This document shows positions 11,219 to 28,811 of a DNA stretch of 39,659 nucleotides, piece by piece; position 1 is the stretch's first letter, and each line of letters begins with the position of its first letter. The translations under genes and the position numbers were made by a program. This DNA comes from Candidatus Omnitrophota bacterium (lineage in GTDB: Bacteria; Omnitrophota; Omnitrophia; Omnitrophales; Aquincolibacteriaceae): assembly GCA_019052695.1 (NCBI GenBank), contig JAHQRI010000003.1:1-39659 (forward strand). Direction: 5' to 3'. The notes under the pieces are model-generated. The model saw only the letters and a program-made list of their open reading frames with translations, was not told the DNA's origin and searched no databases.

Positions 11219-11237
11219 AATAAGGAGGACGGTGCTT

Positions 11238-11705
11238 ATGCCCAGACGGGATGGGTGCGGGCCCCCGTGGTTCTCGGGTCAGTTGAGAGGATGCGGGCGC
11301 AGGATGACGGTCACCAGAGAGCTCATCTTGGATGTTGTCAGCAAAAAGGGCGGACATCTGAGTGCAGATGAGGTGTTCGAGGCGGTCCGAAAAAGGTATC
11401 CCGGGATCGGCCTTGTTACGGTTTATCGGACCCTGGACCTTTTAGCTGGTATGGACGTTCTTTCGAAGCATGAATTTGGGGATGGACGTGCTCGTTATGA
11501 AATGATCAACGGCTCCAAAAGCGATGACCATCACCATCATCTTGTCTGCACGTCCTGCAATTGCGTTGTCGATTATAGGGATTTTATCGATGACGAGGTG
11601 CAGTTGTTGAAAAAGACCGAGGCGGGTCTTTCGAAGAAGTTCCGTTTCAAGATCACGGACCATGTGATCGAGTTCTACGGTCTTTGCGAGAAATGCCAAC
11701 AGTAA
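11238..11705 (+). CDS. Fur-family metal- or peroxide-responsive regulator
   Basis: A 155-residue Fur-family protein. The winged helix covers about residues 22-92 (RMTVTRELILD, SADEVF, VTVYRTLDLL). The dimerisation half has a His cluster (98-101) and two CxxC pairs, C104/C107 and C150/C153, the usual structural zinc site. It carries a 20-residue N-terminal extension with two extra cysteines (C7 and C19). The start at 11238 has AAGGAGG nine bases upstream; the GTG at 11232 is too close to that site. Fur, PerR and Zur cannot be separated on this evidence, but the box upstream is of Fur type. Confidence 0.9.
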   Translation: MPRRDGCGPPWFSGQLRGCGRRMTVTRELILDVVSKKGGHLSADEVFEAVRKRYPGIGLVTVYRTLDLLAGMDVLSKHEFGDGRARYEMINGSKSDDHHHHLVCTSCNCVVDYRDFIDDEVQLLKKTEAGLSKKFRFKITDHVIEFYGLCEKCQQ

Positions 11706-12038: not shown

Positions 12039-12066
12039 CAGATTTCAAAATGAGGAGGTGACGATC

Positions 12067-12420
12067 ATGCCAGGAGGAGATAGAACAGGACCCACGGGAA
12101 TGGGGCCCATGACAGGAAGGGCTGCCGGCTATTGCGCAAGTTACGCAGGTCCCGGCTATGCGAACCCCGTCGTGGGAAGGCGGTTCGGGCTAGGACTCGG
12201 TTGGGGCTGGGGGAGAGGACGTGGCGGCGGGTTCGGCCGTGGTTTTGGCAGGGGTTGGGGCGCTTATGCTTACGCGGCTCCTTATTATCCTGCGGAGCTT
12301 TCTCCGACAAGAGAAGCCGAGGTTCTTCGGGATCAGGCCAAAACTATGCAGCAAGAGATCGATGCCATCAATCGACGTATCCAAGAGCTCGAATCTTCAC
12401 AGTCGTCGGAGAACAAATAA
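12067..12420 (+). CDS. DUF5320-type Gly/Arg-rich protein
   Basis: A 117-residue protein with the DUF5320 opening MPGGDRTGPTGMGPMTGR followed by GYC, then a long Gly/Trp/Arg-rich segment (about 40-72) and a C-terminal helix of coiled-coil type (EAEVLRDQAKTMQQEIDAI). A strong GAGGAGGTGA site precedes the ATG at 12067, so the longer in-frame start is rejected. The family is usually found beside NifX-type and MinD-type genes, as here. Its biochemical role is unknown. Confidence 0.8.
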   Translation: MPGGDRTGPTGMGPMTGRAAGYCASYAGPGYANPVVGRRFGLGLGWGWGRGRGGGFGRGFGRGWGAYAYAAPYYPAELSPTREAEVLRDQAKTMQQEIDAINRRIQELESSQSSENK

Positions 12421-12454
12421 GAAGATCGACTTTCAAAAAAAGGGGGCGTTTTCT

Positions 12455-12694
12455 ATGCCAGGAGGCGATGGGACCGGACCGAGTGGAAGAGGCCCGCGAG
12501 GGCGAGGGGGTGTCGGCCGCGGCATGGGGCGGGGTCGTAATGGGCTGAACCCAGGCGTGTTGGGTTCGGTCCCGGAGGGGGTTTGTGTTTGCTCAAATTG
12601 CGGAGCCGAGATCAGGCACCAAGTCGGAATCCCGTGTTCTTCCGTTAACTGTCCGAAATGCGGAACTTCGATGACAAGAAAGGCCTCAATTTAA
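12455..12694 (+). CDS. Small MPGGD-leader zinc-ribbon protein
   Basis: A 79-residue protein that repeats the MPGGDGTGPSGRGP opening of its upstream neighbour, then a Gly/Arg stretch, then a zinc-ribbon-like part with CVCSNCG and CPKCG plus further Cys residues between. The ATG at 12455 follows AGGGGG. The shared opening suggests both proteins bind a common partner or arose from one ancestor. The function is unknown; metal binding by the paired cysteines is the safest statement. Confidence 0.7.
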   Translation: MPGGDGTGPSGRGPRGRGGVGRGMGRGRNGLNPGVLGSVPEGVCVCSNCGAEIRHQVGIPCSSVNCPKCGTSMTRKASI

Positions 12695-12805
12695 GAAAGA
12701 TCGTTGTACGATCCATCCCGCGTCAGGGACGGGTTAAGCGGTTGTTTCGATCAGCCAGCACAGGATCGATAAAATCAAAACTAAGCTTTAATGCGGGGGA
12801 AATTT

Positions 12806-13189
12806 ATGAGATACGCTATAGCAAAAGACGGAAATTTGGTTTCGGCCCATTTCGGAAGATGTATGGAATACGTGCTTTTGGATGTTGAAAACGGCCAGAT
12901 CAGTAATGAACAAGTGGTCGCCAATCCCGGACACGCTCCGGGTAATATCCCCGATTTTTTAAATTCGCACCGGGTCAACGTGGTCATTGCGGGAGGAATG
13001 GGTGCGCGGGCCGTTCAATTCTTCAAGCAATTCGGAATGGACACCGTCGTCGGAGTTGCCGGTACCCTCTCCGAAGTCAAAAAGATGCTCACTGAAGGAG
13101 CGCTCAAAGGTGGCGAAAGCACTTGCAGCCCTAAAAGCGGCCGGGGGTACGGGCTCGAACGCCAAGGCGGTTGTCACCATGATGAGTAA
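12806..13189 (+). CDS. NifX/NafY-type FeMo-cofactor-family protein, copy 1
   Basis: A 127-residue protein of the dinitrogenase iron-molybdenum cofactor biosynthesis family: MRYAIAKDGN, VSAHFGRCMEYVLLDVENG and VIAGGMGARAVQFF, with the conserved HFGRC element. It ends with a Cys/His-rich tail (GGCHHDE). Family members bind Fe-S or Mo-Fe(-Cu) clusters, as in NifX, NafY and the orange protein. The start at 12806 is preferred because GGGGGA lies just before it. No nitrogenase genes are in the window, so nitrogen fixation is not implied. Confidence 0.85.
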   Translation: MRYAIAKDGNLVSAHFGRCMEYVLLDVENGQISNEQVVANPGHAPGNIPDFLNSHRVNVVIAGGMGARAVQFFKQFGMDTVVGVAGTLSEVKKMLTEGALKGGESTCSPKSGRGYGLERQGGCHHDE

Positions 13190-13996: not shown

Positions 13997-14365
13997 GTGA
14001 AGATCGCCATTACTTCAGAAGGGAAAAGCCCGGCCGCGGCCGTAGATCCGCGTTTCGGGAGGTGTAAATATTTCATCGTCTACGATTCTGATTCCGGTGC
14101 CTTCGAATCCTTGGAAAATACGCACGCCCAAGCTTCGGGCGGGGCCGGCATTCAGGCGGGCCAGTGGATGGTTTCCAAAGGTGTGGAGGCGGTGTTGACG
14201 GGGCATGTGGGACCGAATGCTTCCGGCGTTTTGCTTCCTGCCGGCATTAAGATCTATACGGGTGTCTCAGGGACCGTGGCTGAAGCGTTCGAACGTTTTC
14301 GGAAAGGAGAATTGCCGACGGCCCCCGGTCACCCGGGGATGGTTGACGGAGGGAAGACTTCGTGA
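13997..14365 (+). CDS. NifX/NafY-type FeMo-cofactor-family protein, copy 2
   Basis: A 122-residue second member of the family: MKIAITSEG, VDPRFGRCKYFIVYD, and VLTGHVGPNASGVL with the Gly-rich ligand loop. It starts with GTG at 13997, preceded by AAAGGA. Its stop overlaps the GTG of the ferredoxin (GTGA, four bases), so the two are translationally coupled. This arrangement, NifX-type protein then ferredoxin then MinD-ferredoxin ATPases, is the one described around orange-protein genes in sulfate reducers. Cluster type is not predictable from sequence. Confidence 0.87.
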   Translation: MKIAITSEGKSPAAAVDPRFGRCKYFIVYDSDSGAFESLENTHAQASGGAGIQAGQWMVSKGVEAVLTGHVGPNASGVLLPAGIKIYTGVSGTVAEAFERFRKGELPTAPGHPGMVDGGKTS

Positions 14366-14532
14366 TCCGGATCGATAGTTCAAAGTGTGATGGGTGCGGG
14401 ATCTGCGTCGAGATCTGCCCTGTCCGGGGCGTCGAAGTTATGGCGGGCAAAGCGGTCGCTAATGAACGATGCATCGATTGCGGGACTTGCGTGCCGTGTT
14501 GTCCCCCCGAGGCGATCACCCGTGGGGAATGA
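14362..14532 (+). CDS. 2[4Fe-4S] ferredoxin, 56 aa
   Basis: A short frame encodes two classical clusters: CDGCGICVEICP and CIDCGTCVPCCP, each CxxCxxCxxxC followed by Pro. The start is GTG at 14362, overlapping the stop of the second NifX gene, and the frame ends at TGA 14530-14532. A longer overlapping frame in another register is not the product here. It is a low-potential electron carrier, probably serving the adjacent MinD-ferredoxin proteins or the NifX partner. Confidence 0.93.
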   Translation: MIRIDSSKCDGCGICVEICPVRGVEVMAGKAVANERCIDCGTCVPCCPPEAITRGE

Positions 14533-15172
14533 CCTGCGTCCGTTTTCCGGAAGCTGCCCGACGCCTGCCGGAGCACCGGAAGCGATCCTGTATCTCCTAC
14601 AACGCAAAAAACTCTTTCTCGAGTACGGTTACGACCTTGACGGAGAACGAGACGCGTTATTGGACCAGTTGGGGTCCGTCCGCGGGAAAGTGCTTGAGGT
14701 CGGAACGGGAAAAGGGCATTTCGCGCTCGCCCTGGCGCGTCGGGGCGTTGCGTTTACGACGGTCGATATTTCACGCGAAGAAAGTGAGATCGCCAGGGTC
14801 TACCTCGCGTTCCACGGTCTCGAAAAGTTCGCGGACTTCAGGCTCGAAAAAGACGACCGGCTGAGTTTTTCTGGCGGGTCATACGATTGGGTCCTCTCGG
14901 TCAATCTTCTGCATCATTTAAAGAACCCTCGTGAAACCCTTGGGGAGTTTATCAGGGTGCTGAGGCCCGAGGGCACGCTCATGCTCAGCGATTTCACGGA
15001 AGAGGGATTTGGTCTGATGGATAAGATCCATGCCCTGGACGGGCGAGTACACGATCGCGGCGTGGCCCCTCTGGCCCAAGCCGTGGACTTTCTTACCGAG
15101 ACGGGAATGCGTTTGGAGAAACGTTGGACAAGCCGTTTCCAACAAAGCGTTCTTCTCCGGAGGTCCCGATGA
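14522..15172 (+). CDS. Class I SAM-dependent methyltransferase
   Basis: A 216-residue protein with the Rossmann SAM site VLEVGTGKGHFALALARRG near residues 55-73, an acidic end of strand two (VDIS), and DWVLSVNLLHHL at motif IV/post-I. The likely start is GTG at 14522, eleven bases inside the ferredoxin gene, after a GAGG. The next gene starts in an ATGA overlap at 15169. The substrate is unknown. Embedding between ferredoxin and a MinD-type gene suggests it belongs to the same system. Confidence 0.82.
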   Translation: MGNDLRPFSGSCPTPAGAPEAILYLLQRKKLFLEYGYDLDGERDALLDQLGSVRGKVLEVGTGKGHFALALARRGVAFTTVDISREESEIARVYLAFHGLEKFADFRLEKDDRLSFSGGSYDWVLSVNLLHHLKNPRETLGEFIRVLRPEGTLMLSDFTEEGFGLMDKIHALDGRVHDRGVAPLAQAVDFLTETGMRLEKRWTSRFQQSVLLRRSR

Positions 15173-16011
15173 TCATCGCGGTGGCGAGCGGGAAGGGGGG
15201 GACCGGAAAAACGACGGTCGCGGTCAACTTGGCCCTGGCGTTGGGGGACTGTCAGTTGTTGGATTGTGATGTTGAGGAACCCAACGCGCAGATCTTTCTG
15301 AAGGCCGACCTTAAGGGGTCAAGACCTGCGACGGTGCTTGTTCCCGAGGTCGACCACAATAAGTGCACTTTTTGCGGGCGATGCAGGGAGGTGTGCGCTT
15401 ATCACGCTTTGGCGGTCCTTCCCAAAAAAGTCCTCTTTTTCCCTCAAATGTGCCACAGTTGCGGGGCCTGTGAGATGTTCTGCCCGGAAAAGGCGATCCG
15501 GGAGGTTGAACGTCCGATCGGAGTGATCGAAACAGGGAAGAAGGGGGGTATCCGGTTCGTACAGGGAAGACTGAACGTCGGAGAGACCATGGCCCCGCCG
15601 CTTATCCGGCAAGTCAAATCCCTTTGTGAGCCCGGTTCCACGGTCATCATTGACGCGCCGCCGGGGACCTCGTGTCCCATGGTCACCGCCGTGAAGGGAA
15701 GCGATTTTTGCATTCTCGTCACCGAACCCACCCCCTTCGGGATGAACGATCTTCAATTGGCCGTGGAGACCGTCAGGAAACTCGGGGTCCCGTTCGGTGT
15801 CGTCCTCAATAGGGCTGAACCCCATGACATCAAGACCCGGTTGTTCTTTAAGGCACAACGGCTTCCCGTCCTCTTGAAGATCCCATTTGACCGGAAGATC
15901 GCCGAGCTTTATTCTACCGGGACCCCTTTTATTGATCATTTTCCCGAGTACCGTGAAAAATTTCTCGGGATCTTCAGGCAGATCTCCGGAAATGTGAAGG
16001 TGCGCGCATGA
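15169..16011 (+). CDS. MinD-type ATPase with inserted 2[4Fe-4S] domain, copy 1
   Basis: A 280-residue P-loop ATPase of the MinD/Mrp class. The deviant Walker A motif SGKGGTGKTT lies at 7-16, and DAPPGTSCP marks the Walker B region. A ferredoxin domain is inserted at about 60-110 with CTFCGRCREVC (C66, C69, C72, C76) and CHSCGACEMFC (C95, C98, C101, C105). The second copy of this architecture is at 17798. Such proteins accompany NifX/ORP genes; they are thought to use ATP to load or move clusters. ATGA overlap with the methyltransferase fixes the start. Confidence 0.92.
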   Translation: MIIAVASGKGGTGKTTVAVNLALALGDCQLLDCDVEEPNAQIFLKADLKGSRPATVLVPEVDHNKCTFCGRCREVCAYHALAVLPKKVLFFPQMCHSCGACEMFCPEKAIREVERPIGVIETGKKGGIRFVQGRLNVGETMAPPLIRQVKSLCEPGSTVIIDAPPGTSCPMVTAVKGSDFCILVTEPTPFGMNDLQLAVETVRKLGVPFGVVLNRAEPHDIKTRLFFKAQRLPVLLKIPFDRKIAELYSTGTPFIDHFPEYREKFLGIFRQISGNVKVRA

Positions 16012-16123
16012 GATGGGCTTCCGAAAACCGTGACCGTACGGAGCTACCCGTGTCCGAGCGCCTCCACCGGACGAACGCGGGGCGATCTTGCGGAAGATCT
16101 CGCGGCGATGCCGGGGGGACAGC

Positions 16124-17797
16124 ATGTTGCTCCTGATCTTTCTTTCGGTCCTCGCTCTATTTTACGCGGCTTATCACTTTTACGGGGAGGGGGTGCTTTC
16201 GAAGCTTTTCGGCGTGGATGACAAGAACCCGACGCCGTCCCATACCCAAAGCGACGGCATCGATTATGTCCCGACCCCCAATTTGATCTTGTTCGGGCAC
16301 CATTTTTCGTCCATCGCGGGCGCGGGGCCGATCGTCGGCCCCATCATCGTCGGGGTCGCCTTTGGATGGCTCCCCGCCTTGATCTGGATCGTTCTGGGGT
16401 CGATTTTGATCGGGGGGCCGCATGACATGGGGGCCGTCCTGGCTTCGGTGAGGCATCAGGGAAGGTCCCTCTCGGAGATCGCCCGCCGGTACATTTCGCC
16501 GCTTTCCTATAAACTTTTTCTACTTTTTATTTGGCTGGCGCTTGTGTACATCCTTATCGTCTTCGCGGACCTGACCTCTGCCTCTTTTGTGGAGGACGGT
16601 GCGACCGCCACCGCGTCCTTTTTCTACATCCTTCTCGCTGTCTTGTTCGGATTGGCCATCAACCGGTTCGGATTGAACATTTTTCGGAGTTCCCTGATAT
16701 TCGTGCCCCTCATTTTCGCCGGGATCTACATCGGCATAGTGTTCCCGGTAAAAAATGTTCCCTTGATCCTGGGCTCCGCGAACGGATTTTTCAATTTCGT
16801 GCTTCTGGTCTATGTTTTTTTCGCTTCGACCTTGCCTGTCTGGTTCCTTCTGCAGCCGAGGGACTACCTGAGCTCATACCTTCTCTACTTCTCCGTTTTG
16901 GCCGGGGTCGCGGGTATCCTGTTGGGGGAGTTCAAGATCGCCTATCCCGCTTTTACCTCGTATCAGTCCGATTATCTGGGGCCGCTTTTTCCGCTCGTGT
17001 TCGTGACCATTGCCTGCGGGGCGGTTTCGGGTTTCCATGCCTTGGTAGGTTCTGGAACGACCTCAAAACAGATCAATCGCGAAAGTGACGCGGTCAAGAT
17101 CGGGTACGGGGGGATGCTCGTCGAAGGGATCGTGGCCGTGATCGCGCTAATGACCGTCATGATCCTGGCGCCCTCGGGAGAGCTCGGGTCCAAAGCGCCC
17201 CTTGCCGTCTATGCGGAAGGGATCGCCCGATTCCTGGCCGTTTTTCATCTGCCGGTCGCGTTCGGTAAAACGTTCGGCCTGATGGCGCTCTCGGCTTTCA
17301 TTCTCACGACCCTTGACACGGCCACGCGACTGGGGAGGTACGTTTTTCAGGAATTCTTTGGTTGGACGGACTCGAGGCACCGTTGGAAAGCCACGGCCGT
17401 GACGTTGATATTCCCGGCGATCGGCCTATACTCTACGCTTCAGGATCCTTTGTCGGGCAAGGTGCTTCCCGCCTGGAAGGTGATCTGGCCGCTTTTTGGG
17501 ACCACGAACCAGCTCCTTGCCGGTCTGGTGCTTTTGGTGATCTCCGTTTATTTGTTGAAGAGCCGGAAGAAGATCTCCTACACACTGATCCCTTGCGTTT
17601 TCATGGTGGTCATGAGCGTCTGGTCTTTAGCGGAACTGATCTTGAAATATGGAGGGACCATGATCGGGGGGATCGCGATCGCCATCCTGATCTTAACGGT
17701 CGTGATCATTGTTGATTCGGCGGTCACGATTAAAAAATATTATCAAAACCCTTTTTGTGACGAAAAAAAACTTGTGAAAAGCGGAATCGCCGGGTGA
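16124..17797 (+). CDS. CstA-family carrier (carbon starvation protein A type)
   Basis: A 557-residue polytopic inner-membrane protein with about 14-16 hydrophobic segments. The CstA hallmarks are a GHHFSSIAGAGPIVGP block, GGPHDMGAVLASVRH, SGFHALVGSGTTSKQI and TTLDTATRLGRY. CstA proteins import pyruvate or peptides; E. coli CstA has 701 residues, so this is a short form with a reduced C-terminal part. GGGGGG lies three bases before the ATG at 16124; the upstream in-frame TTG is less likely. It abuts the second MinD-ferredoxin gene without a gap. The substrate here is unknown. Confidence 0.9.
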   Translation: MLLLIFLSVLALFYAAYHFYGEGVLSKLFGVDDKNPTPSHTQSDGIDYVPTPNLILFGHHFSSIAGAGPIVGPIIVGVAFGWLPALIWIVLGSILIGGPHDMGAVLASVRHQGRSLSEIARRYISPLSYKLFLLFIWLALVYILIVFADLTSASFVEDGATATASFFYILLAVLFGLAINRFGLNIFRSSLIFVPLIFAGIYIGIVFPVKNVPLILGSANGFFNFVLLVYVFFASTLPVWFLLQPRDYLSSYLLYFSVLAGVAGILLGEFKIAYPAFTSYQSDYLGPLFPLVFVTIACGAVSGFHALVGSGTTSKQINRESDAVKIGYGGMLVEGIVAVIALMTVMILAPSGELGSKAPLAVYAEGIARFLAVFHLPVAFGKTFGLMALSAFILTTLDTATRLGRYVFQEFFGWTDSRHRWKATAVTLIFPAIGLYSTLQDPLSGKVLPAWKVIWPLFGTTNQLLAGLVLLVISVYLLKSRKKISYTLIPCVFMVVMSVWSLAELILKYGGTMIGGIAIAILILTVVIIVDSAVTIKKYYQNPFCDEKKLVKSGIAG

Positions 17798-18655
17798 ATG
17801 TTCATGAAACAGATCGTTGTGATCAGCGGCAAAGGGGGGACGGGCAAGACGATGCTGACCGGCGCCCTGGCGGCATTGATCCCGAACAAGGTCGTGGCGG
17901 ATTGCGACGTGGACGCCGCGAACCTTCATCTTTTGCTGCATCCGTCCGTTAAGGAGGTCCATTCGTTCAAAAGCGGGGCCGCGGCCCGGATCGATCCCTT
18001 GCTTTGCACGCGGTGTGGCCGCTGTGTTGAGGTATGCCGCTTCGGCGCGGTCCGTGAGGGGTTCGAGATCGACCCGATCGCCTGTGAAGGGTGCGGGCTT
18101 TGCGCTCATGTCTGCCCCGTCAAAGCGATCAGCATGGAAGAATGCACCGCGGGAGAATGGTACGTTTCCAAGACGCGCTACGGCCCGTTCGTCCACGCGA
18201 AGCTCGGGATTGCGGAAGAGAATTCAGGAAAACTTGTGGCTAAAGTACGGCAGGTCGCTAAAGAGATCGCGGAAGAAAAAAAAGCGGATTATGTGATCAT
18301 TGACGGTCCGCCGGGCATCGGGTGCCCCGTGATCGCGTCGCTTACCGGTGTGGACCTGGTCGTGGTCGTGACCGAACCGACCCTCTCGGGCCTTCACGAT
18401 GCGGAGCGGGTGATCGAGTTAGCGGAGCATTTTAACGTACCTGTGCGAATGGTGATCAATAAATGGGACATCAATCCGGAGGCGGCCGCAAAGATCCGGG
18501 CGTTGTGCGAGTCCCGGAAGATCCCCGTGATCGGGTCCATCCCGTTCGACAGAACGATCACCGAGTCGGTGATCGCGGGAAATACGGCCTCGGAACACGC
18601 TCAGGGAGCGCTCCGGGACCGGTTTGCCGCTATTTGGGAGGCCGTGAAGGGGTAA
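17798..18655 (+). CDS. MinD-type ATPase with inserted 2[4Fe-4S] domain, copy 2
   Basis: A 285-residue paralogue of the 15169 gene. It has SGKGGTGKTM (Walker A), an inserted ferredoxin domain with CTRCGRCVEVC (C70, C73, C76, C80) and CEGCGLCAHVC (C96, C99, C102, C106), and DGPPGIGCP. The start at 17798 directly follows the CstA stop; the ATG at 17804 gives the more typical MKQIVVISGKGG opening and is equally possible. Two such ATPases probably form a heterodimer. It is followed three bases later by the DUF2099 gene. Confidence 0.92.
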   Translation: MFMKQIVVISGKGGTGKTMLTGALAALIPNKVVADCDVDAANLHLLLHPSVKEVHSFKSGAAARIDPLLCTRCGRCVEVCRFGAVREGFEIDPIACEGCGLCAHVCPVKAISMEECTAGEWYVSKTRYGPFVHAKLGIAEENSGKLVAKVRQVAKEIAEEKKADYVIIDGPPGIGCPVIASLTGVDLVVVVTEPTLSGLHDAERVIELAEHFNVPVRMVINKWDINPEAAAKIRALCESRKIPVIGSIPFDRTITESVIAGNTASEHAQGALRDRFAAIWEAVKG

Positions 18656-18658
18656 GTG

Positions 18659-19660
18659 ATGAGGACCGCTGACCGGGATCTCCATGTTTTGAAATATTTT
18701 TCGTCCGTTGTCACGGTTTCCAAAGGCCAGGTTATCAATGTCACGGAACCTTCGCTCCGCGCCTGTCCGCTGGCGAGCCATTTTTATCCAGAATTCAGGA
18801 ATGCCGATCCGGAAGATCCGGCGTCCGTGAAACGCGCGGTTCGGGAAGTCATCGAAGCCAAGGTCCGGAACTACGGTTTTTTTACCGATGGTCGGTCCTT
18901 TCATTTTCCGCGATGTGTGGTCCCGTATGGGGCTTCCGAAATGCTCTCGAGCGCATTGAAAAATCAATTCCTCGAGGCGGCCGTCGTGGTCTGCGACGGG
19001 GCGGGGACGGTGATCGTCCGTTCGCCCGAGATCGTCCAGGGGATCGGGGCGCGCATGAATTCCCTCATTTTTACGTCTCCCTTGAAGGGGGTTCTCGAAA
19101 AACTGGACCAAGCCGGTTGCCGGGTCATATCCAGGGACACTGCTTGGATCGATCAGCCAAAGGGTGTTGAAAAAGCGCTGTCGCTGGGCTACGGCAAAAT
19201 AGGCGTGACCGTGACCGGTTTCGCGGCGGACCAACTTGCGCAGATCCGTGAGCTGGAACAAAGAGCCCGGGCGGAGGTGACTCTTCTTGCCGTGTGCACG
19301 AGCGGGATCTCCGGTGATAAGATCGAGACGATCCGCCGTCATGCCGACCTGGTGTGGGCCTGCGCGTCTGGTGAAGTCCGGGAACGGCTCGGTCCCTCGG
19401 CCAAAGTGCAGCTTTCGAAACGGATCCCGGTCTATGCCTTGACCGACCGAGGGGTTGCTTTCGCCGCAGCTTATTTGAACGATCCTTTCCTTGTCCGGTG
19501 CCTGGACCTTCAAAAGCAGTACTGTGTTTCAAGCGGAGCCGGGCTGCGTTCGCCCTTCTCAGGTTCTTTGAAGACACAGATCCGGGAAACGGGGTCGCCT
19601 ACGGACGTGTCGAATGCTTCGTGTTACGAACCGGTGCAAAGTCAAAGGGGTGAGGGATGA
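18659..19660 (+). CDS. DUF2099 protein (methanogenesis marker 8 family)
   Basis: A 333-residue soluble protein matching my knowledge of the DUF2099 / methanogenesis marker protein 8 family: a CPL segment near residue 36, ASEMLSSALKNQFLEAA, the diagnostic VVVCDGAGTVIV (108-120), VQGIGARM, and IDQPKGVEKALSLGY (164-178). The family is best known from methanogens, where its role is not settled. ATG at 18659 follows AAGGGG; GTG at 18656 is a fallback. It shares an ATGA overlap with the NifU-type scaffold, a strong hint of joint function. Several cysteines (C36, C86, C112) are candidates for metal or cluster binding. Confidence 0.85.
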   Translation: MRTADRDLHVLKYFSSVVTVSKGQVINVTEPSLRACPLASHFYPEFRNADPEDPASVKRAVREVIEAKVRNYGFFTDGRSFHFPRCVVPYGASEMLSSALKNQFLEAAVVVCDGAGTVIVRSPEIVQGIGARMNSLIFTSPLKGVLEKLDQAGCRVISRDTAWIDQPKGVEKALSLGYGKIGVTVTGFAADQLAQIRELEQRARAEVTLLAVCTSGISGDKIETIRRHADLVWACASGEVRERLGPSAKVQLSKRIPVYALTDRGVAFAAAYLNDPFLVRCLDLQKQYCVSSGAGLRSPFSGSLKTQIRETGSPTDVSNASCYEPVQSQRGEG

Positions 19661-20043
19661 CCCGGCAAGGTGCCGTATTCTTCGGAAAAATGAAAAAACC
19701 GACCGCGCAGGCGTGTATACAGGGGCCATGCGGGGATACCATGGAGTTCTTTTTAAAGATCACGCGTCATACGGTGAGACAGGTCCGTTGTTCCACGTCC
19801 GGCTGCGGGGCGTCAAAGGCTTGTGCCGTCGAGACCGCGAGGATGGCCCAGGGCAAGAGTCTCGCGAGCGTGCTCCTTATTTCTCCCGGTAAAGTGATCC
19901 GGGCGCTCAAGAACATTCCTGAGGGTCATTTGCATTGCGCCATTCTGTCCGTAAGCACCTTGCACCGGGCGGTCGCTGACTATCTCATGCGTGGGAAACG
20001 AAAGATCAACATTCGGGGAAAGGCGGGTTCTCATGGACACTGA
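19657..20043 (+). CDS. NifU/IscU-type iron-sulfur scaffold protein
   Basis: A 128-residue protein with the three scaffold cysteines of the IscU/NifU N-terminal domain: GPCGDTM (C25), SGCGASKAC (C50) and HLHC (C94). The Asp next to C25 and the GKSL helix are also present. Extra cysteines at 20, 45 and 56 are unusual. Clusters would be assembled here and passed on. Its start lies in the ATGA overlap with DUF2099 and its end overlaps the ZIP transporter gene by 11 bases, so all three are coupled. No cysteine desulfurase is in the window. Confidence 0.87.
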   Translation: MTRQGAVFFGKMKKPTAQACIQGPCGDTMEFFLKITRHTVRQVRCSTSGCGASKACAVETARMAQGKSLASVLLISPGKVIRALKNIPEGHLHCAILSVSTLHRAVADYLMRGKRKINIRGKAGSHGH

Positions 20044-20785
20044 AATGTTCTTTTGGATATTCGGAAGCGGGGTTCTCATGAGCGGGATCGCTTTGATCGG
20101 AAGTGTCAGCTTTTTGCTAAGACAAGAGGTCCTGGACCGGCTGGTCTTACCCTTGGTCGCGTTGGCCGCGGGGAGCCTGATCGGCGGCGCGTTGTTCCAT
20201 ATGCTCCCCGCGGCACTATCGAGCGCTCATTTGGACGCGCTGAAGATCGGTATCTGGCTGGCGGCGGGGTTCACGGTTTTTTTCGCGCTGGAGCAGTTCA
20301 TTCACCATCACCACTGCCACCGGAAGGCCTCAGACTGTAAGAAACCTTTCGGGTATCTCGTTCTTATCGGGGACGGTTTCCATAATCTTCTGGGGGGCAT
20401 GGCCGTCGCGGGGACCTTTCTCGTGGACATCCGCCTCGGGATCGCGACGTGGATCGCCGCGGCGGCGCATGAGATCCCCCAGGAATTAGGAGATTTCGGG
20501 GCCTTGGTCTACAGCGGATGGAGCCGGAAAAAAGCGCTCCTCTGGAATTTTGCCTCTGCGTTGATGTTCCCGGTGGGGGGCTTGCTCACCTATTTTCTTT
20601 CGTTCCAGATCCAAACGGATTTCCTGATCGCTTTTGCGGCCGGGAATTTTATCTACATCGGGGCTTCGGACCTCGTCCCGGAAGTCAATAAGGCCCGCAC
20701 GATCGGGACGAATATCATTCATTTCTCGGCCTTTGTGAGCGGGTTGTTGATGTTGCTGAGCATTCATTTCTTTTTACACCATTGA
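20033..20785 (+). CDS. ZIP-family divalent metal transporter
   Basis: A 250-residue membrane protein with about eight hydrophobic segments. TM4 and TM5 carry the ZIP metal-site motifs GDGFHNLLGG and AAAHEIPQELGDFG. A His-rich cytoplasmic loop (FIHHHHCHRK) near residue 87 is typical. ZIP proteins bring zinc, iron or related ions into the cytoplasm. The HEIPQE form is the animal ZIP-like bacterial subgroup. The ATG at 20033 gives a normal family length and lies within the end of the scaffold gene. Iron is attractive as substrate because of the neighbours, but zinc is as likely. Confidence 0.9.
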   Translation: MDTEMFFWIFGSGVLMSGIALIGSVSFLLRQEVLDRLVLPLVALAAGSLIGGALFHMLPAALSSAHLDALKIGIWLAAGFTVFFALEQFIHHHHCHRKASDCKKPFGYLVLIGDGFHNLLGGMAVAGTFLVDIRLGIATWIAAAAHEIPQELGDFGALVYSGWSRKKALLWNFASALMFPVGGLLTYFLSFQIQTDFLIAFAAGNFIYIGASDLVPEVNKARTIGTNIIHFSAFVSGLLMLLSIHFFLHH

Positions 20786-20798
20786 ACGAGGGAACGGT

Positions 20799-21158
20799 AT
20801 GAACGTGGCGTTGGTCGGGGCAACGAACAAGCCGGAACGGTATGCCTACCAAGCGATGAGGCTGTTATGGGAAAAAGGCCACCGGGTCTATTTGGTGCAT
20901 CCGCGTCTTGCGGAGATCGAAGGGGCCCGAGTTTATCGAACGATCCGTGAGATACCGGAACGCATTCACACGGTGACGCTTTATGTCGCGGCATCGCGGT
21001 CGGTACCGATGGTTCAAGAGATCCTTGAGTGTCGGCCCCAAAGGATCGTTTTCAATCCGGGGGCGGAAAATGACGCGTTAGAAAAAAAGGCCCGGGGGGC
21101 CGGCATCCAAACGGTCCAAGGGTGTACGTTGGTCATGCTCAAAACCGATCAGTTCTAG
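20799..21158 (+). CDS. CoA-binding domain protein (YccU type)
   Basis: A 119-residue Rossmann-fold protein: VALVGATNKPERYAYQAMRLL at the start, GHRVYLVHP, and VQEILECRPQRIVFNPGAEND. These match the small standalone CoA-binding proteins (CoA_binding_2, YccU-like). Their role is not well known. GAGGGA precedes the ATG. It is 13 bases downstream of the ZIP gene and 12 bases upstream of a methyltransferase gene. Confidence 0.87.
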   Translation: MNVALVGATNKPERYAYQAMRLLWEKGHRVYLVHPRLAEIEGARVYRTIREIPERIHTVTLYVAASRSVPMVQEILECRPQRIVFNPGAENDALEKKARGAGIQTVQGCTLVMLKTDQF

Positions 21159-21170
21159 GTCCTGACGACG

Positions 21171-21818
21171 ATGAAAAATCTGTTTGACCGATTCTATAAG
21201 CGGTACGACGCTTGGTATGACCGCCACAAGAACGCTTTCCGGTCCGAGCTCAAGGCGGTTCGACGGTTCCTTCCCCGAAAGGGAAAGGGGCTTGAGGTCG
21301 GGGTCGGCACGGGGCGATTTGCCGCTTCGCTGGGGATCCAAATAGGGATCGACCCGTCAAAGAAAATGATCGCGATCGCGAGAACGCGGGGCATCGACGC
21401 CCGTTGGGGCCGCGGCGAGTCTCTCCCGTTCCCAAGGTCGTCTTTTGATCACGTCGTTTTGATCATCACGCTATGTTTTGTTCAAAAACCCGCCTGCGTC
21501 TTAAAAGAGGCACGGCGGGTTTTGAAAAAAAACGGGACCTTACTCGTAGGGATGATCCCCGGGGACAGTGCCTTAGGGGCGGCTTATCAAAAAAAAGGAA
21601 GCGTTTTCTATAAGAATGCGCGTTTCTTCACGGTGACCGAGCTTTTGCGCAAGTTAACGGCTTTGAAGTTCTCGGATTTCAAAATTTGCGAAACACTTTT
21701 CCGTTCCCCGGACAAAATGACACGGCCGCAGAACCCCAAGGACGGGTCCGGGAAGGGCGGGTTTGTTGTCGTGGCCTGTCGCAAGAACGAAAGCGGGAGA
21801 AGGGCAGGGCGCGAATGA
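21171..21818 (+). CDS. SAM-dependent methyltransferase (type 11)
   Basis: A 215-residue methyltransferase with the SAM loop GLEVGVGTGRFAASL near residues 40-54, DPSKKM at the acidic motif, and RWGRGESLPFPRSSFDHV, the usual E-x-LPF pattern of type 11 enzymes. The substrate is unknown. The stop overlaps the start of the J-domain gene (ATGA). Confidence 0.87.
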   Translation: MKNLFDRFYKRYDAWYDRHKNAFRSELKAVRRFLPRKGKGLEVGVGTGRFAASLGIQIGIDPSKKMIAIARTRGIDARWGRGESLPFPRSSFDHVVLIITLCFVQKPACVLKEARRVLKKNGTLLVGMIPGDSALGAAYQKKGSVFYKNARFFTVTELLRKLTALKFSDFKICETLFRSPDKMTRPQNPKDGSGKGGFVVVACRKNESGRRAGRE

Positions 21819-22135
21819 AAAAGAAGATCGGATTCGAAGAGATCGACCGCGCAAGGCGGGTGTTGGCGCTTGACGAACACGCGTCCATGCAGGAGATCAA
21901 GGACGCCTACCGCCATCTTGCGGCCCGGTACCACCCGGACCGGTGTAAAAAACGCGAGTTGGCTTTGTGCGAAAAAAAGATCAGGGAAATCAATCTTGCA
22001 AAGGACCTTCTGATGGCTTATTGCGCGAATTACCGGTATTCCTTCGGGGAAAAAGACGCAACGCGCAATGCTTTCGAAAAGGAAGAATACGAACATTTGA
22101 AACAGTTTTACGACGGTTGGATCGCGGAACTATGA
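21815..22135 (+). CDS. Small J-domain protein
   Basis: A 106-residue protein with a J domain at about residues 12-75 and an intact HPD motif at 40-42 (RYHPDRC). It lacks the Gly/Phe and zinc-finger parts of DnaJ. J domains stimulate Hsp70 ATPase. HscB does this for IscU, so a co-chaperone role for the NifU-type scaffold at 19657 is a reasonable guess. Start and end both lie in ATGA overlaps. No Hsp70 gene is in the window. Confidence 0.87.
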   Translation: MKKKIGFEEIDRARRVLALDEHASMQEIKDAYRHLAARYHPDRCKKRELALCEKKIREINLAKDLLMAYCANYRYSFGEKDATRNAFEKEEYEHLKQFYDGWIAEL

Positions 22136-22600: not shown

Positions 22601-23428
22601 ATGAAAAACGCTAAAAAAAGGAGGCGGAGGTTGAAACCGGCAACGGCGAGCTATCGTTACATCTACGGCCCCGTGGCATCCTGGAGGCTTGGGAGCTCGT
22701 TGGGAGTAGACCCTATCTCGGCGAAAAATAAAATCTGTAGTTTCGATTGTATCTATTGCCAGCTCGGCCCGACCCGGGCATTTTTGGACCGTCGGAGCGT
22801 GTTTGTTCCTGCAAAGGCGATTGTGGATGAGATCAAGGGCCTTCCTCAGACGTCGATCGATTACATAACGTTTTCCGGGGCTGGAGAACCCACGCTCGCA
22901 AAAAATCTTGGAACAATGATCCGGGCGGTCAAAAAGGTCCGAAAGGAAAAGATCGCCGTGATCACCAATACTTCGCTGATCGATCGCGAAGACGTTCGGA
23001 AAGATCTGGGGGAGGCGGATCTTGTTCTGGCGAAACTGGATGCGGATCGCGAGCCCCTTTTCCAAAAGGTGAACCGTCCGATGGCCGGGATCCATTATCG
23101 GAAAATGCTTCAAGGCTTAAAAAAATTTACGGCAAATTTTCGCGGTCGGTTAGCCCTTCAGATCATGTTTACGGCGGCGAACGCCCGCGCCGCTGCTCGG
23201 GTCGCGCGGCTGGCCGGGGCGATTTCCCCGGACGAGATCCAGCTGAACACCCCGTTGCGGCCGTGCGGTGTGAAACCTCTTTCCAAGAAAGCGATGCAAA
23301 ACATCGGGGGCATTTTTCGACGTGTTTGCGGGGGTGCGAGCCATATCGTTAACGTTTATCAGATTGAAAAACGAAAAGTTTCACCGATCAGTAATCCGGA
23401 TACTCTGCGTCGTCGGGGAAAGACTTAA
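22601..23428 (+). CDS. Radical SAM protein (COG0731 type)
   Basis: A 275-residue radical SAM enzyme with the CxxxCxxC cluster motif CSFDCIYCQLG (C46, C50, C53) preceded by YIYGPVASWRLGSSLGVDP, the opening of the COG0731 wybutosine-synthesis-like group. FSGAGEPTLA is the SAM-binding GGE-type element. Bacterial members have no assigned reaction. A TTG start after AGGCGGAGG, about ten codons downstream, is possible; the ATG at 22601 gives a Lys/Arg-rich N-terminus. Confidence 0.88.
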   Translation: MKNAKKRRRRLKPATASYRYIYGPVASWRLGSSLGVDPISAKNKICSFDCIYCQLGPTRAFLDRRSVFVPAKAIVDEIKGLPQTSIDYITFSGAGEPTLAKNLGTMIRAVKKVRKEKIAVITNTSLIDREDVRKDLGEADLVLAKLDADREPLFQKVNRPMAGIHYRKMLQGLKKFTANFRGRLALQIMFTAANARAAARVARLAGAISPDEIQLNTPLRPCGVKPLSKKAMQNIGGIFRRVCGGASHIVNVYQIEKRKVSPISNPDTLRRRGKT

Positions 23429-23450: not shown

Positions 23451-24266
23451 ATGTTTTTTCGAATACTCTTAAGGAGGCGAGTGCTTCATCGTGCGCTGAC
23501 GGCTCTTTTTTTTCTAGCCTTTGCCGGTCTTCTCTCCGGGTGCGCTTCAGCGCCGCCGCGGTCGACCCCGGTCTTTTACAGCTCGCGTCAGTCCGTCTTA
23601 TCATCGTCGGTAGTGGCCCCGGTCTCTGCCGTCGGACTCCGTGATGTCTATCACGAAGTCGGGCCTTGTGAAACGCTTTGGCGGATCTCTAAAGTTTATG
23701 ATGTGGACATAGAGACCCTCATGCGCGTGAATCACTTGGAGGACAAGACGCAGCTTAAGAAAGGAATGAAACTTTTGATCCCGGGCACGAGAGGGCCGAG
23801 GGCGAACATCCCGCTTTTCCCGACAACGCGTTGGACCCACATTGTGATCCACCACACGGCGACGGATGAGGGCAGCGCTTTTAGTATTGACGGAATGCAT
23901 CACCAAAGGGGATGGGAGAACGGTCTGGGGTATCATTTTCTGATCGATAACGGAACACGTGGGAAGGCCGTCGGGCAGATCGAAGTGGGACCGCGGTGGA
24001 TCAAACAAATGCAGGGAGCGCATGTAAAAGTCGGTGACTGGAACCAGAAATCCGTCGGGATCGGGGTGGTGGGGAATTACAGCGAGGAGAGGATTGACGC
24101 GAAGACGTTCGAGTCCTTGCTGTTCTTGATCGCCACGCTAAAAAATCACTACCGGATCCCCGACCGGAACATCGTCGGACATCGTGATGTGCCCGGGGCG
24201 GCGACAGAGTGCCCGGGCAAACTTTTCCCCTGGAGTGAATTCAAACGCCGTCTCCGGTACGCGTAA
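23451..24266 (+). CDS. LysM-amidase_2 lipoprotein (peptidoglycan amidase)
   Basis: A 271-residue envelope protein. A signal peptide ends in the lipobox LLSGC (C31), so it should be lipid-anchored in the periplasm. One LysM domain covers about 66-112 (CETLWRISKVYDVDIETLMRVN). The amidase_2/PGRP domain runs from about 125 to the end, with zinc ligands in VIHHTA (about 134) and in the GAH and GHRD...ECPG region, as in AmpD-like N-acetylmuramoyl-L-alanine amidases. It cleaves the bond between muramic acid and the stem peptide. The neighbours offer no obvious link; it may be a passenger. Confidence 0.9.
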   Translation: MFFRILLRRRVLHRALTALFFLAFAGLLSGCASAPPRSTPVFYSSRQSVLSSSVVAPVSAVGLRDVYHEVGPCETLWRISKVYDVDIETLMRVNHLEDKTQLKKGMKLLIPGTRGPRANIPLFPTTRWTHIVIHHTATDEGSAFSIDGMHHQRGWENGLGYHFLIDNGTRGKAVGQIEVGPRWIKQMQGAHVKVGDWNQKSVGIGVVGNYSEERIDAKTFESLLFLIATLKNHYRIPDRNIVGHRDVPGAATECPGKLFPWSEFKRRLRYA

Positions 24267-24300
24267 TACGTTCCGCGATAAAACGGTCAGGAGTGATCAC

Positions 24301-24786
24301 ATGCTTTACCTGTACGGTGCGGCGGTTTTGGCGCTTGTAGTCTCATTACGTGCGAACCATCAAAAAACGCGACGCGCTTTGACGGTCGCTTGGCGTGAAT
24401 GCGCGCAGATCTTTCCCGAGCTCATGATCATGGTCGTTCTGGTCACTATCTTTTTGTTCTTGGTGCCGGATCGGGCTATTGCGTCTTTTCTCGGAGGTCG
24501 TGAAAAATGGTCCGGATTTTTGTTTGCGGTATTGTTGGGGTCGATCACGATCATGCCTGGATTCATCGCGTTTCCGCTTTGCGGGATCCTTTTAAAACAA
24601 GGCGTGTCCTACATGGTGCTCTCGGCTTTCGCGAACACCTTGATGATGGTTGGGGTCGTGACGTTCCCGATTGAGAAACGGTATTTTGGGGTCAAGATCA
24701 CGGTGATAAGGAATGGGCTGAGCCTCGTGATCGCGGTGATCGTGGCGCTCGCGACGGGATTTTTTTACGGAGAATTATTCCGATGA
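24301..24786 (+). CDS. Permease half, N-terminal (DUF318/ArsP_1-like)
   Basis: A 161-residue membrane protein with about five hydrophobic segments, including GSITIMPGFIAFPLCGILLKQG, the conserved Gly/Pro-rich segment of the permease family related to YraQ and ArsP. Full-length members are about 300-350 residues with two such repeats. Here the second repeat is a separate gene overlapping by ATGA. GGAG precedes the ATG. The substrate is unknown. Confidence 0.75.
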   Translation: MLYLYGAAVLALVVSLRANHQKTRRALTVAWRECAQIFPELMIMVVLVTIFLFLVPDRAIASFLGGREKWSGFLFAVLLGSITIMPGFIAFPLCGILLKQGVSYMVLSAFANTLMMVGVVTFPIEKRYFGVKITVIRNGLSLVIAVIVALATGFFYGELFR

Positions 24787-25316
24787 CGTCTTCACGCAGA
24801 ATCATGGTTTTCGCGGGAATGTTGTACGGGGCCGTGATCCTTTGGGCGTTCCTGACGGGTTATCAGCCGGGGCAGCAGATCGGTCGGGATTTTGTTACTT
24901 TTAGCGGTGACCTGTTTAAGGTCATGCCTCCGGTTTTTGTCCTCATAGGGTTGTTTGAAGTTTGGGTGTCGTCCGAGGATGTCGAAAAGCATTGCGGAAA
25001 AAATTCGGGGTCCGTCGGTTTTCTTTGGGCCGTGCTTCTTGCCAGTACGACGGTCGGGGGGGCTCAGATGGCGTTCCCGGTCGCGTACGCGTTACACAGG
25101 AAGGGAGCAAGGCTCGCAGTGATTTTTACTTATGTAGGGGCGGCCGCGATTTGCCGGATCCCTATGACGACCTTTGAAGCGACTTTTTTGGGTCCCAAAT
25201 TTACGGTGATCCGATGGGGGATCTCGCTACCGTTGGTCATTGGGACCGCTATTTTTTTGGAGCGTTACGGAACAAAGCAAGGTCGAACGTTGCCTCTTCT
25301 GGAAAGGGATCGATGA
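24783..25316 (+). CDS. Permease half, C-terminal (DUF318/ArsP_1-like)
   Basis: A 177-residue membrane protein with about five hydrophobic segments. ASTTVGGAQMAFPVAYAL echoes the Gly/Pro-rich segment of the first half, so the pair probably form a heterodimer equivalent to one two-repeat permease. Both ends are in ATGA overlaps, with the first half and with the DUF89 gene. There is no sign of a frameshift: each half has its own start and stop at natural ends. Confidence 0.75.
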   Translation: MTSSRRIMVFAGMLYGAVILWAFLTGYQPGQQIGRDFVTFSGDLFKVMPPVFVLIGLFEVWVSSEDVEKHCGKNSGSVGFLWAVLLASTTVGGAQMAFPVAYALHRKGARLAVIFTYVGAAAICRIPMTTFEATFLGPKFTVIRWGISLPLVIGTAIFLERYGTKQGRTLPLLERDR

Positions 25317-26203
25317 GGACCTATCTTGATTGCATTCCTTGTTTTTTCAGACAGGCACTCGAAGCGTCCCAGCTTGCGGGTGCGGACCAGGGGACGCAGC
25401 GGCTCGTAATGAACCGGTTGGCCGCCATCCTGCCGTCTTTTCCTCTTCGCTCGACACCGCCTGAAATGGGCCGTCTCATTTACCGGATGGTCGGCAAGGC
25501 TTCGGGGAAGAGGGACCCCTATGCTCACATTAAGGCCGAAAGCAACCGGAAGGCGCTGAAAATTTACCCCCGGCTCAAAGAACGTATTCTCCGATCCCGT
25601 GACCGGTTGGGCATGGCGGTGCGTTTTGCCATTGCCGGGAACATTATCGATTACGGCGTTAAAAATTCCCTGGATGTTGAATACGAGCTAAAGAAGATGC
25701 TGAAAACCGAGGACCGGACGGTCCGCCAGGAAAGTCACAAATTCTACGCATACGAAAAATTCAAAAAGGCCCTACGAAGGTCTAAAACCATTCTTTATTT
25801 AGCGGATAACGCTGGCGAAACCGTGTTCGATCGATTGCTGATCGAAGAAATCAAAAGGGAAGATGCCGGCAAAAGGATCTTTTACGCGGTCAAGTCTGGC
25901 CCGACGATCAATGACGCGTTGATCGAGGACGCCCGCGTCTGCGGGATCGGGAGCGCGGCCGAGATCATTACGAACGGGCTGGCCGCTCCGGGGACGATCC
26001 TTCCGTTGTGTAGCCGGGCTTTTCTGAAGCGGTTCCGGAACGCGGATATGGTGATCAGCAAAGGACAGGGCAATTTCGAATCGTTGTCGCGTTCTCCGCG
26101 GCGCGTTTTCTTTCTTTTTATGGCCAAATGCCCGGTCGTTGCCTCTCATGTGGGATGCCGGGTCGGGGACATCATTTTGCAATGCGGGGGGAAAAGACCA
26201 TGA
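25313..26203 (+). CDS. DUF89/ARMT1-like damage-control phosphatase
   Basis: A 296-residue protein of the DUF89 family. It has the N-terminal CIPCF pair (C7, C10), YLADNAGETVFDRLLIE with the metal-binding Asp/Asn, KSGPTINDAL, and SKGQGNFESL, where further metal ligands lie. Family members are metal-dependent phosphatases acting on damaged or overflow phosphometabolites; the prokaryotic subgroup with the N-terminal CxxC has no fixed substrate. It is coupled at both ends (ATGA with the permease, ATGA with the small Cys protein). Confidence 0.87.
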   Translation: MRTYLDCIPCFFRQALEASQLAGADQGTQRLVMNRLAAILPSFPLRSTPPEMGRLIYRMVGKASGKRDPYAHIKAESNRKALKIYPRLKERILRSRDRLGMAVRFAIAGNIIDYGVKNSLDVEYELKKMLKTEDRTVRQESHKFYAYEKFKKALRRSKTILYLADNAGETVFDRLLIEEIKREDAGKRIFYAVKSGPTINDALIEDARVCGIGSAAEIITNGLAAPGTILPLCSRAFLKRFRNADMVISKGQGNFESLSRSPRRVFFLFMAKCPVVASHVGCRVGDIILQCGGKRP

Positions 26204-26498: not shown

Positions 26499-27332
26499 AT
26501 GCAACAAACAGATCAGCAAAAGGCCATTGAAAATCAGCTGGAGCGTGTTAAGGTCCGCATGAAAGCGATCAAGCGGAAATACATCGTCATGAGCGGGAAA
26601 GGGGGCGTCGGTAAAACGACCGTGGCGGTCAACTTGGCTGCGGCCCTTGCGGCGAAAGGGAAGCAAGTGGGTATCTTGGACGTCGATATCCACGGCCCCA
26701 ACATCGCCAAAATGCTCGGGATCGAGACAGAACTGGTCCAGCAGTTCCGCGAGGATTGCATCCAGCCCGTTCCGGTGGGAAGTCACTTGAAGGCGGTTAG
26801 CATTGCTCTCCTCGGGATCGACCCTTCGGAACCGATCATCTGGCGGGGCCCGGCCAAGACGGGGGTCATCCGCCAATTCCTCGGGGATGTGGAGTGGGGC
26901 GAGTTGGATCATTTGATCGTGGATTGTCCCCCCGGCACAGGAGATGAGCCCTTGAGCGTGTGCCAGCTCATTCCCGACCTGACCGGGGTGATCGTCGTGA
27001 CAACGCCCCAGGAAGTAGCGCTTCTGGACGCGCGAAAGAGCATTTCGTTCGCAAAAAAGATCAACATCCCGGTCACGGGGGTCGTGGAGAACATGAGTGG
27101 GTTGACGTGCCCGCATTGCCAGAAAGAGATCGATTTTTTCAAAAAAGGGGGCGGAGCTAAGCTGGCCGCGGAACAAAAAGTGCCGTTCCTCGGGGCCATC
27201 CCCATGAGTGTCGATTTTGTCTGCCACGGTGACCGGGGGATCCCGTTCGTTACGTTGGAACAACCGGGGCCTTCCGTAAGGGCTTTTTTGGAGATCGTTG
27301 ATAAAATAGAATCGAACCAGGGAATTGTGTAA
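26499..27332 (+). CDS. mrp: Mrp/ApbC/NBP35-type Fe-S cluster carrier ATPase
   Basis: A 277-residue P-loop ATPase with the Walker A motif MSGKGGVGKTT (31-41), DVDIHGPNI, DCPPGTGDEPLS, and the cluster-binding CPHC near 204-207. These define the Mrp/ApbC group that binds a bridging 4Fe-4S cluster at a dimer interface and delivers it to apoproteins. AAAGGAG lies seven bases before the ATG, and TATAAC at 26470-26475 may be its -10. Unlike the MinD proteins upstream it has no ferredoxin insert. It is followed by a ferritin-like gene 20 bases later. Confidence 0.94.
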   Translation: MQQTDQQKAIENQLERVKVRMKAIKRKYIVMSGKGGVGKTTVAVNLAAALAAKGKQVGILDVDIHGPNIAKMLGIETELVQQFREDCIQPVPVGSHLKAVSIALLGIDPSEPIIWRGPAKTGVIRQFLGDVEWGELDHLIVDCPPGTGDEPLSVCQLIPDLTGVIVVTTPQEVALLDARKSISFAKKINIPVTGVVENMSGLTCPHCQKEIDFFKKGGGAKLAAEQKVPFLGAIPMSVDFVCHGDRGIPFVTLEQPGPSVRAFLEIVDKIESNQGIV

Positions 27333-28103: not shown

Positions 28104-28811
28104 ATGAAGATCCGTTTGATCGCCGAAGGTTCAACAAAACGCGAAAGAAGGATTTTGCGCTGGGGCATCTCTTTTCTGGTCGAGGACGTTCTTTTTGACG
28201 CTTTTGGTCGGGCTGATATTTTTTGGGAGAACATCAGACGCTTTCGGATCGATCTTAGCCCCGTGCGGCACGTAGTGATCTCTCACGATGACTGGGACCA
28301 CATCGCGGGACTTCAAGGATTGCTTCAGGCTCGGCCTAAAATGAAAGTTCACGTTTGCGAGAAGACCGGGGAGGGTCTTAAGGATCTTGTCAGAAGCCAC
28401 CTTGGAACGCTTGTCGAGGTCCGGAAGGTCACAAAGATCGCGCGCCGCATTTTTTCAACCGGGCAGATGCGCGCCGACACGGGCCGAGGTATTCTTTATG
28501 AACAGGCGCTCGTGATCAAAACCCGAAAAGGGATTTCGGTGATCACCGGCTGTGCCCACCCCGGGATCCTCAGGATCGTCAAAAAGGTCATCAGGGATTT
28601 CGGGAAGAACATTTATGCCGTTTGCGGTGGTTTTCACATGAAGAATAACGAACATGCGGAAAATGTGAAGATCGCGACCGCGCTCAAGGCCCTGGGCGTT
28701 GTGAAGGTTGCTCCGCTTCACTGTTCCGGAGCGGCGGCTGTTGCTGTGTTCCAGAAGGTCTTCGGAAAGCATTGCGTCCGATGGAAAGAAGGCGCTCTCT
28801 TAGAGATTTGA
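28104..28811 (+). CDS. Metallo-beta-lactamase-fold hydrolase (COG1237-like)
   Basis: A 235-residue MBL-fold protein. The metal motif is SHDDWDH (residues 60-66), with GCAHPGI, GGFHM and the late HCSG strand as further ligands. COG1237 proteins have HxHxDH here; in this protein the second His is Asp63, which is unusual. The family was linked to pterin synthesis (RFAP synthase-like), but most members have no tested activity. CGGAGGT lies 11 bases upstream of the ATG. Its location next to DUF2099-bearing genes may be coincidence. Confidence 0.82.
   Translation: MKIRLIAEGSTKRERRILRWGISFLVEDVLFDAFGRADIFWENIRRFRIDLSPVRHVVISHDDWDHIAGLQGLLQARPKMKVHVCEKTGEGLKDLVRSHLGTLVEVRKVTKIARRIFSTGQMRADTGRGILYEQALVIKTRKGISVITGCAHPGILRIVKKVIRDFGKNIYAVCGGFHMKNNEHAENVKIATALKALGVVKVAPLHCSGAAAVAVFQKVFGKHCVRWKEGALLEI

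Follow-up and report, generated by a model that had tools for sequence, protein, structure and literature searches.

The nearest characterised relative of the gene cluster described here is the ORP complex of Desulfovibrio (Orp3, Orp4, Orp5, Orp8 and MrpORP), in which MrpORP transfers Fe-S clusters to Orp3/Orp4, and which was purified together with an orange protein (PMC6345978). A second relevant system is the MCR activation complex of methanogens (McrC, Mmp7, Mmp17, Mmp3 and A2), in which methanogenesis markers take part in ATP-driven delivery of low-potential electrons via Fe-S clusters; marker 8 is not among the co-purified proteins reported for it (PMC12176620). A third point of comparison is provided by the iron-sulfur flavoproteins FrhB and 7-hydroxymethyl chlorophyll a reductase (HCAR, 5dqr) of the families PF04422/PF04432. 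The [4Fe-4S] cluster of FrhB is held by four cysteines, 104, 134, 192 and 195 (PMC3591093). Marker 8 itself, the family DUF2099 (PF09872; TIGR03275), has no assigned function in the literature that we searched.

Here we analyse a stretch of 39,659 nucleotides (the window), which is one entire contig (C72) of an Omnitrophota MAG of 1.88 Mb and 87% completeness. The DUF2099 gene of this contig lies in a cluster with Fur at its head. Like the ORP complex, the cluster combines genes for a pair of MinD-type ATPases, which carry two [4Fe-4S] ferredoxin motifs, with genes for an Mrp carrier and for orange-protein homologues of the NifX type. It differs from the ORP complex in having the Fur head, NifU, methyltransferases, radical SAM and DUF89 proteins, and in the insertion of DUF2099 in some genomes of the bacterial cluster. 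Its Mrp protein, of 277 aa, has the NUBPL/ParA model as its sole match and lacks the extra Di-Nase domain of MrpORP. ORP operons are divergent and controlled by sigma-54; the window cluster occupies a single strand. With the MCR activation complex the locus shares the combination of a methanogenesis marker with components suited to ATP-driven electron delivery, but bacterial DUF2099 hosts have no MCR.

The DUF2099 locus in the window

A preliminary description of this DNA had assigned three adjoining genes at 18659-20785 to DUF2099, a NifU-type scaffold and a ZIP transporter, and Pfam profile searches bore this out (Table 1). The DUF2099 protein matches PF09872 with an E-value of 2.5e-75 and 253.5 bits, far over the gathering cut-off of 25 bits, its residues 9-268 covering profile positions 1-251 of 257. 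Against TIGR03275, the 'methanogenesis marker 8' model, it scores 229 bits, slightly below the equivalog cut-off of 232.7 bits; it shares the full-length match and the invariant residues of marker 8 and differs in carrying an extra C-terminal segment. The scaffold matches PF01592 (NifU_N, E 2.8e-16) and, aligned with its homologues, retains the cluster ligands C25, D27, C50 and H93-C94, and hence the three cysteines and the aspartate. Its N terminus is short, the match beginning at profile position 31 of 127, and the protein is shorter than most of its relatives. The transporter matches PF02535 (Zip) with an E-value of 1.1e-30 and 107.5 bits (cut-off 35.1 bits).

The gene junctions, read from the DNA, lie exactly where they had been placed: the stop codon of DUF2099 and the start codon of NifU overlap by four bases in the ATGA at 19657-19660, and the NifU stop codon (TGA, 20041-20043) lies beyond the ZIP ATG at 20033, giving an overlap of 11 bases. 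The gene for ATPase 1 terminates immediately 5′ of DUF2099, and thus the run of tight junctions begins upstream of the three genes. The contig comes from an Omnitrophota MAG, and DUF2099, although named after methanogens, recurs in other bacterial loci. A contaminating contig was considered and is disfavoured: a congener has an ATPase gene 73% identical to that of the window and the same methyltransferase-ATPase-ATPase order, without DUF2099, so that the contig fits its host genome.

Table 1. Genes of the window that belong to, or recur near, the cluster containing DUF2099
Gene product	Position	Strand	Remarks
Fur-family regulator	11232..11705	+	head of conserved cluster
NifX/orange-protein-like Nitro_FeMo-Co domain protein (a)	12791..13189	+	
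NifX/orange-protein-like Nitro_FeMo-Co domain protein (b)	13997..14365	+	
SAM-dependent methyltransferase	14387..15172	+	conserved cluster member; ORF, true start uncertain
ATPase 2, MinD/NUBPL-type with ferredoxin insert	15169..16011	+	ORF opens with TTG at 15124; likely start 15169
CstA-family transporter	16088..17797	+	between the two ATPases in the window genome; outside the conserved core
ATPase 1, MinD/NUBPL-type P-loop ATPase	17798..18655	+	inserted 2x[4Fe-4S] ferredoxin domain (Orp3/Orp4-like)
DUF2099 (PF09872; TIGR03275)	18656/18659..19660	+	ORF; 333 aa; candidate ligands C36, C112, C213, C235
NifU/IscU-type scaffold	19657..20043	+	128 aa; short N terminus
ZIP-family metal transporter	20033..20785	+	
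CoA_binding_2 domain protein	20799..21158	+	recurrent neighbour (12 loci)
Second SAM-dependent methyltransferase	21171..21818	+	recurrent neighbour
Radical SAM protein	22601..23428	+	recurrent neighbour (22 loci)
ARMT1-like/DUF89 damage-control phosphatase	25214..26203	+	recurrent neighbour (21 loci)
Mrp/NBP35 Fe-S carrier ATPase	26499..27332	+	recurrent neighbour
Metallo-beta-lactamase-fold protein	28104..28811	+	recurrent neighbour (32 loci)

The gene run includes further products. A J-domain protein with an HPD motif (21815-22135, + strand), homologues of which occur in 15 compared loci, may serve the NifU scaffold as a co-chaperone of the HscB kind. Small glycine/arginine-rich proteins with the N terminus MPGGD(R/G)TGP are encoded at 12016-12420 and 12221-12694 (ORF) on the + strand; such proteins adjoin NifX-like genes in up to 17 loci, and one of them has a short zinc-ribbon-like tail. 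Two adjoining half-size permeases resembling ArsP_1, with matches below the Pfam cut-off, lie inside the cluster at 24184-25316 (+ strand).

DUF2099 as an insert in a wider Fe-S/ATPase cluster

The conserved cluster has the order Fur, two Nitro_FeMo-Co (NifX/orange-protein-like) genes, methyltransferase, two ferredoxin-insert MinD/NUBPL-type ATPases, DUF2099 and NifU, after which come variable members: ZIP, Mrp, radical SAM, DUF89, MBL, CoA-binding and a second methyltransferase. It is found in many Omnitrophota families and in bins of Elusimicrobiota, Auribacterota, Clostridia and Saganbacteria. Neighbourhoods were counted in 34 bacterial DUF2099 loci with sufficient flank and in 38 archaeal loci, several of them short. 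An ATPase-ferredoxin gene is present in 30 of the bacterial loci and ATPase 1 stands directly upstream of DUF2099 in 18 of them; no ATPase gene was found in the well-flanked loci L071, L074, L079 and L091. Within the flanking DNA examined, none of the archaeal loci has NifU or the cluster ATPases. Their neighbours are mixed (NadA, GDC-P, HisD, H-PPase, SMC-like and others), and clustering them gave no recurring partner.

Relatives without DUF2099 are instructive. The order methyltransferase-ATPase 2-ATPase 1-NifU-ZIP is found without it in genomes G023, G099, G126, G329 and G129, and ATPase 1 and NifU are adjacent in G008 and G030. NifU and ZIP thus hold the same places and belong to the cluster irrespective of DUF2099, which is an insert between ATPase 1 and NifU. 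At the level of whole genomes, ATPase 1 occurs in 24 of 25 DUF2099 carriers vs 77 of 343 non-carriers (Fisher p 7e-14, kinship ignored; the carriers span about 11 family codes). DUF2099 depends on the cluster, while the cluster occurs without DUF2099. The tight junction therefore points to DUF2099 having entered this wider cluster, or being an optional component of it, and the cluster offers a more informative context than the three genes singled out earlier.

In G076, G232, G343, G075 and others, and at L065:2453 and L077:12148, the open frame of ATPase 1 has double length, about 600-660 aa, which suggests a fusion of the two ferredoxin-bearing ATPases. Five bacterial loci have a gene for a HydG-like radical SAM protein, identified by eye at L057:12671-14191, in their DUF2099 cluster.

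Relationship of DUF2099 to FrhB and HCAR

A sequence search of the PDB with the window protein and its profile gave no relative; one emerged only from fold and profile-profile comparison. Two AlphaFold models were compared with the PDB by Foldseek, one of the window protein with a pLDDT of 83 and one of a methanogen-type homologue with a pLDDT of 96, and for both the best match is HCAR, a member of the FrhB family. With the better model all six HCAR chains lead the list, with E-values of 3.8e-5 to 1.5e-4 over 250-310 columns, the next unrelated match being at 0.047. For the two models together the Foldseek probabilities are 0.99-1.00 but the TM scores 0.23-0.36. HCAR superposes only loosely, with a TM of 0.35 by query length and an rmsd of 7-15 A, which means that the fold is rearranged or shared only in part. 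Comparison of DUF2099 with FrhB proteins by hhalign gave a probability of 94-95% and a score of 67. The controls scored lower: seven other families from the loci reached no more than 28, 60 column-shuffled templates no more than 22, and a reversed template 15. Weak matches to PF04422 occur in 28 of 54 DUF2099 members, the best with an E-value of 9.6e-4. Those inspected keep the same register, and none of them exceeds the Pfam cut-off; the window protein itself has no match at E up to 1.

The profile-profile similarity lies in the N-terminal domain and includes the region of the FAD-phosphate-type helix, where GASEML of DUF2099 aligns with the GGVVT-like beginning of the helix in FrhB. Unlike in FrhB, the Fe-S cysteines are not kept as a set: invariance is confined to C36 and C112, with either Cys or His at position 213 and mostly Cys at position 235. 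The looseness of the superposition and the hosts of bacterial DUF2099, which have no F420 ligase, are further differences. These models and alignments provide good evidence that DUF2099 is remotely homologous to FrhB/HCAR, at least to the N-terminal FrhB domain, though short of membership of that family. The placement of DUF2099 with the FrhB/HCAR iron-sulfur flavoproteins by three partly independent tests (Foldseek, profile-profile comparison and Pfam scans) is new here.

Conserved residues and a putative metal site

Residues were compared in 27 bacterial and 27 archaeal DUF2099 sequences. Twenty alignment columns are invariant across all 54, including H9, C36, R79, G91, S93, E94, C112 and a C-x-G-A-G-T loop. 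Position 213 is Cys in all 27 bacteria; among the archaea, 14 have His there and 12 have Cys. Position 235 is Cys in 47 of the 54, comprising all bacteria and 20 archaea. An exchange of Cys and His is typical of metal ligands. It is plausible from the alignment that C36, C112, C/H213 and C235 make up a metal or Fe-S site, mainly because of the exchange at 213 and the ligand-like conservation. The earlier proposal that DUF2099 receives or helps to assemble a metal cofactor is therefore plausible by virtue of its conserved Cys/His positions, but gains no support from the coupling to the scaffold on which it had been based.

Proposed role of DUF2099 and its alternatives

On balance, we lean towards the view that DUF2099, an FrhB-like protein that depends on the conserved ORP-like cofactor assembly cluster and is dispensable to it, serves there as an optional cofactor-binding (metal or Fe-S) redox or receiving partner. 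In anaerobic bacteria, such a cluster would build, store and move cofactors of the iron-sulfur or mixed-metal sulfide type. The NifU scaffold would assemble a cluster, and the Mrp carrier and the pair of ferredoxin-bearing ATPases would deliver it and/or low-potential electrons at the expense of ATP. DUF2099 would bind a metal or Fe-S cofactor through the four positions above, and perhaps also a flavin at the FrhB-like helix, and would serve the ATPase pair as a redox partner or as a recipient. ORP-type cluster delivery is proposed because the Desulfovibrio complex, the nearest characterised system, has the same kinds of parts. For a family without an assigned function, cluster and FrhB/HCAR placement together offer testable residues (C36, C112, 213 and 235) and testable partners (the two ATPases, NifU and Mrp). 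A broader and more tentative extension is that marker 8 may be an ancient MCR-independent redox metalloprotein, a remodelled FrhB fold with a metal site of its own, which bacteria would load and drive via NifU and the ATPase-ferredoxin pair while methanogens would use the same chemistry with other partners.

Alternatively, DUF2099 might catalyse the synthesis or repair of a small molecule that the cluster needs, for instance as a reductase dependent on a flavin or a thiolate, with C112 as the catalytic thiol rather than a metal ligand. HCAR itself belongs to the reductases, H9, R79 and E94 together with the invariant C-D/E-G-A-G-T loop resemble an active site, and genes for methyltransferase, CoA-binding and damage-control phosphatase proteins recur nearby. 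We nevertheless consider an enzyme unlikely: a position that accepts both Cys and His, as 213 does, fits a metal ligand better than a catalytic thiol, and outside the cofactor cluster no substrate or pathway gene accompanies DUF2099 with any consistency.

The preliminary description had taken strict coupling as a sign that the scaffold serves DUF2099, which would make the two a dedicated scaffold-client pair supplied with metal by ZIP. Besides the four-base overlap in the window, the survey of bacterial DUF2099 genes for scaffold neighbours that it had suggested speaks for such a pair: NifU adjoins DUF2099 in 18 of the 34 well-flanked loci, and the neighbourhood is thus not due to chance. However, within the flanking DNA examined NifU is missing from 14 of the 34 bacterial loci and from all 38 archaeal ones, ZIP is near DUF2099 in only five of the 34, and the two genes keep their order in the relatives without DUF2099 listed above. 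The adjacency therefore stands as a recurring arrangement while its interpretation as service to DUF2099 is not supported, and we regard a private pair as improbable. The link between NifU and DUF2099 runs via the cluster that they share.

MCR, F420 ligase and nickel enzymes in DUF2099 carriers

MCR alpha (PF02249) has no match in any of 25 bacterial and in six of 10 archaeal DUF2099 carrier genomes, so that the bacterial carriers lack the methyl-coenzyme M reductase that TIGR03275 expects of a host. F420 ligase was not found in any of the 25 bacterial carriers either, and F420 was accordingly rejected as the cofactor of DUF2099 in bacteria; in both respects the hosts of the bacterial clade differ from those of marker 8 proper. 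DUF2099 is independent of MCR and, in bacteria, of F420. Given non-methanogenic bacterial hosts, a cluster for Fe-S cofactors and the likeness to FrhB, its role is probably something other than methanogenesis itself, and marker 8 is unsafe for inferring methanogenesis from metagenomes.

The absence of MCR matches also bears on a role in maturing a nickel enzyme, MCR in methanogens and CODH/ACS or [NiFe]-hydrogenase in bacteria. This is suggested by the historic marker name and by one locus of Actinomycetota (L091:4175-6406) in which DUF2099 adjoins the gene for a [NiFe]-hydrogenase small subunit, the sole such neighbour seen. CdhC (CODH/ACS) is present in 14 of 25 carriers vs 126 of 343 non-carriers (p 0.09), and the window genome (87% complete) has no match to CdhC or to the [NiFe]-hydrogenase large subunit. 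With no clear association, CODH/ACS and [NiFe]-hydrogenase were set aside as clients, and we consider nickel-enzyme maturation very unlikely.

Distribution, descent and loss

DUF2099 is patchy, being present in 26 of 384 genomes of the phylum and in none of the 57 other genomes, from genus to phylum, of the relatives set. Named relatives of the window protein are mostly Candidatus Omnitrophota. In a tree of 81 members, bacterial DUF2099 sequences cluster with a few Bathyarchaeota and Nanoarchaeota bins, apart from methanogen sequences, and the window protein falls within a bacterial set of 19 rows with 99% SH-aLRT support; the root is a midpoint only and gives no direction of transfer.

Decayed copies occur in two genomes, which indicates that the gene can be lost. 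In G135 (L026/L186) all that can still be recognised next to ATPase 1 is roughly the first 70 codons, and in G158 (L025) C-terminal pieces are split between two frames. That DUF2099 is merely a recent, neutral passenger retained by chance in the operon, as patchiness and decay might suggest, is scarcely credible in view of the conservation of twenty columns among 54 members and the retention of the bacterial clade over many families.

On a Nanoarchaeota-binned contig (L064:3541-5450), DUF2099 directly follows the gene for NadA, quinolinate synthase, an Fe-S enzyme; as this DUF2099 groups with bacteria, the bin may be mixed.
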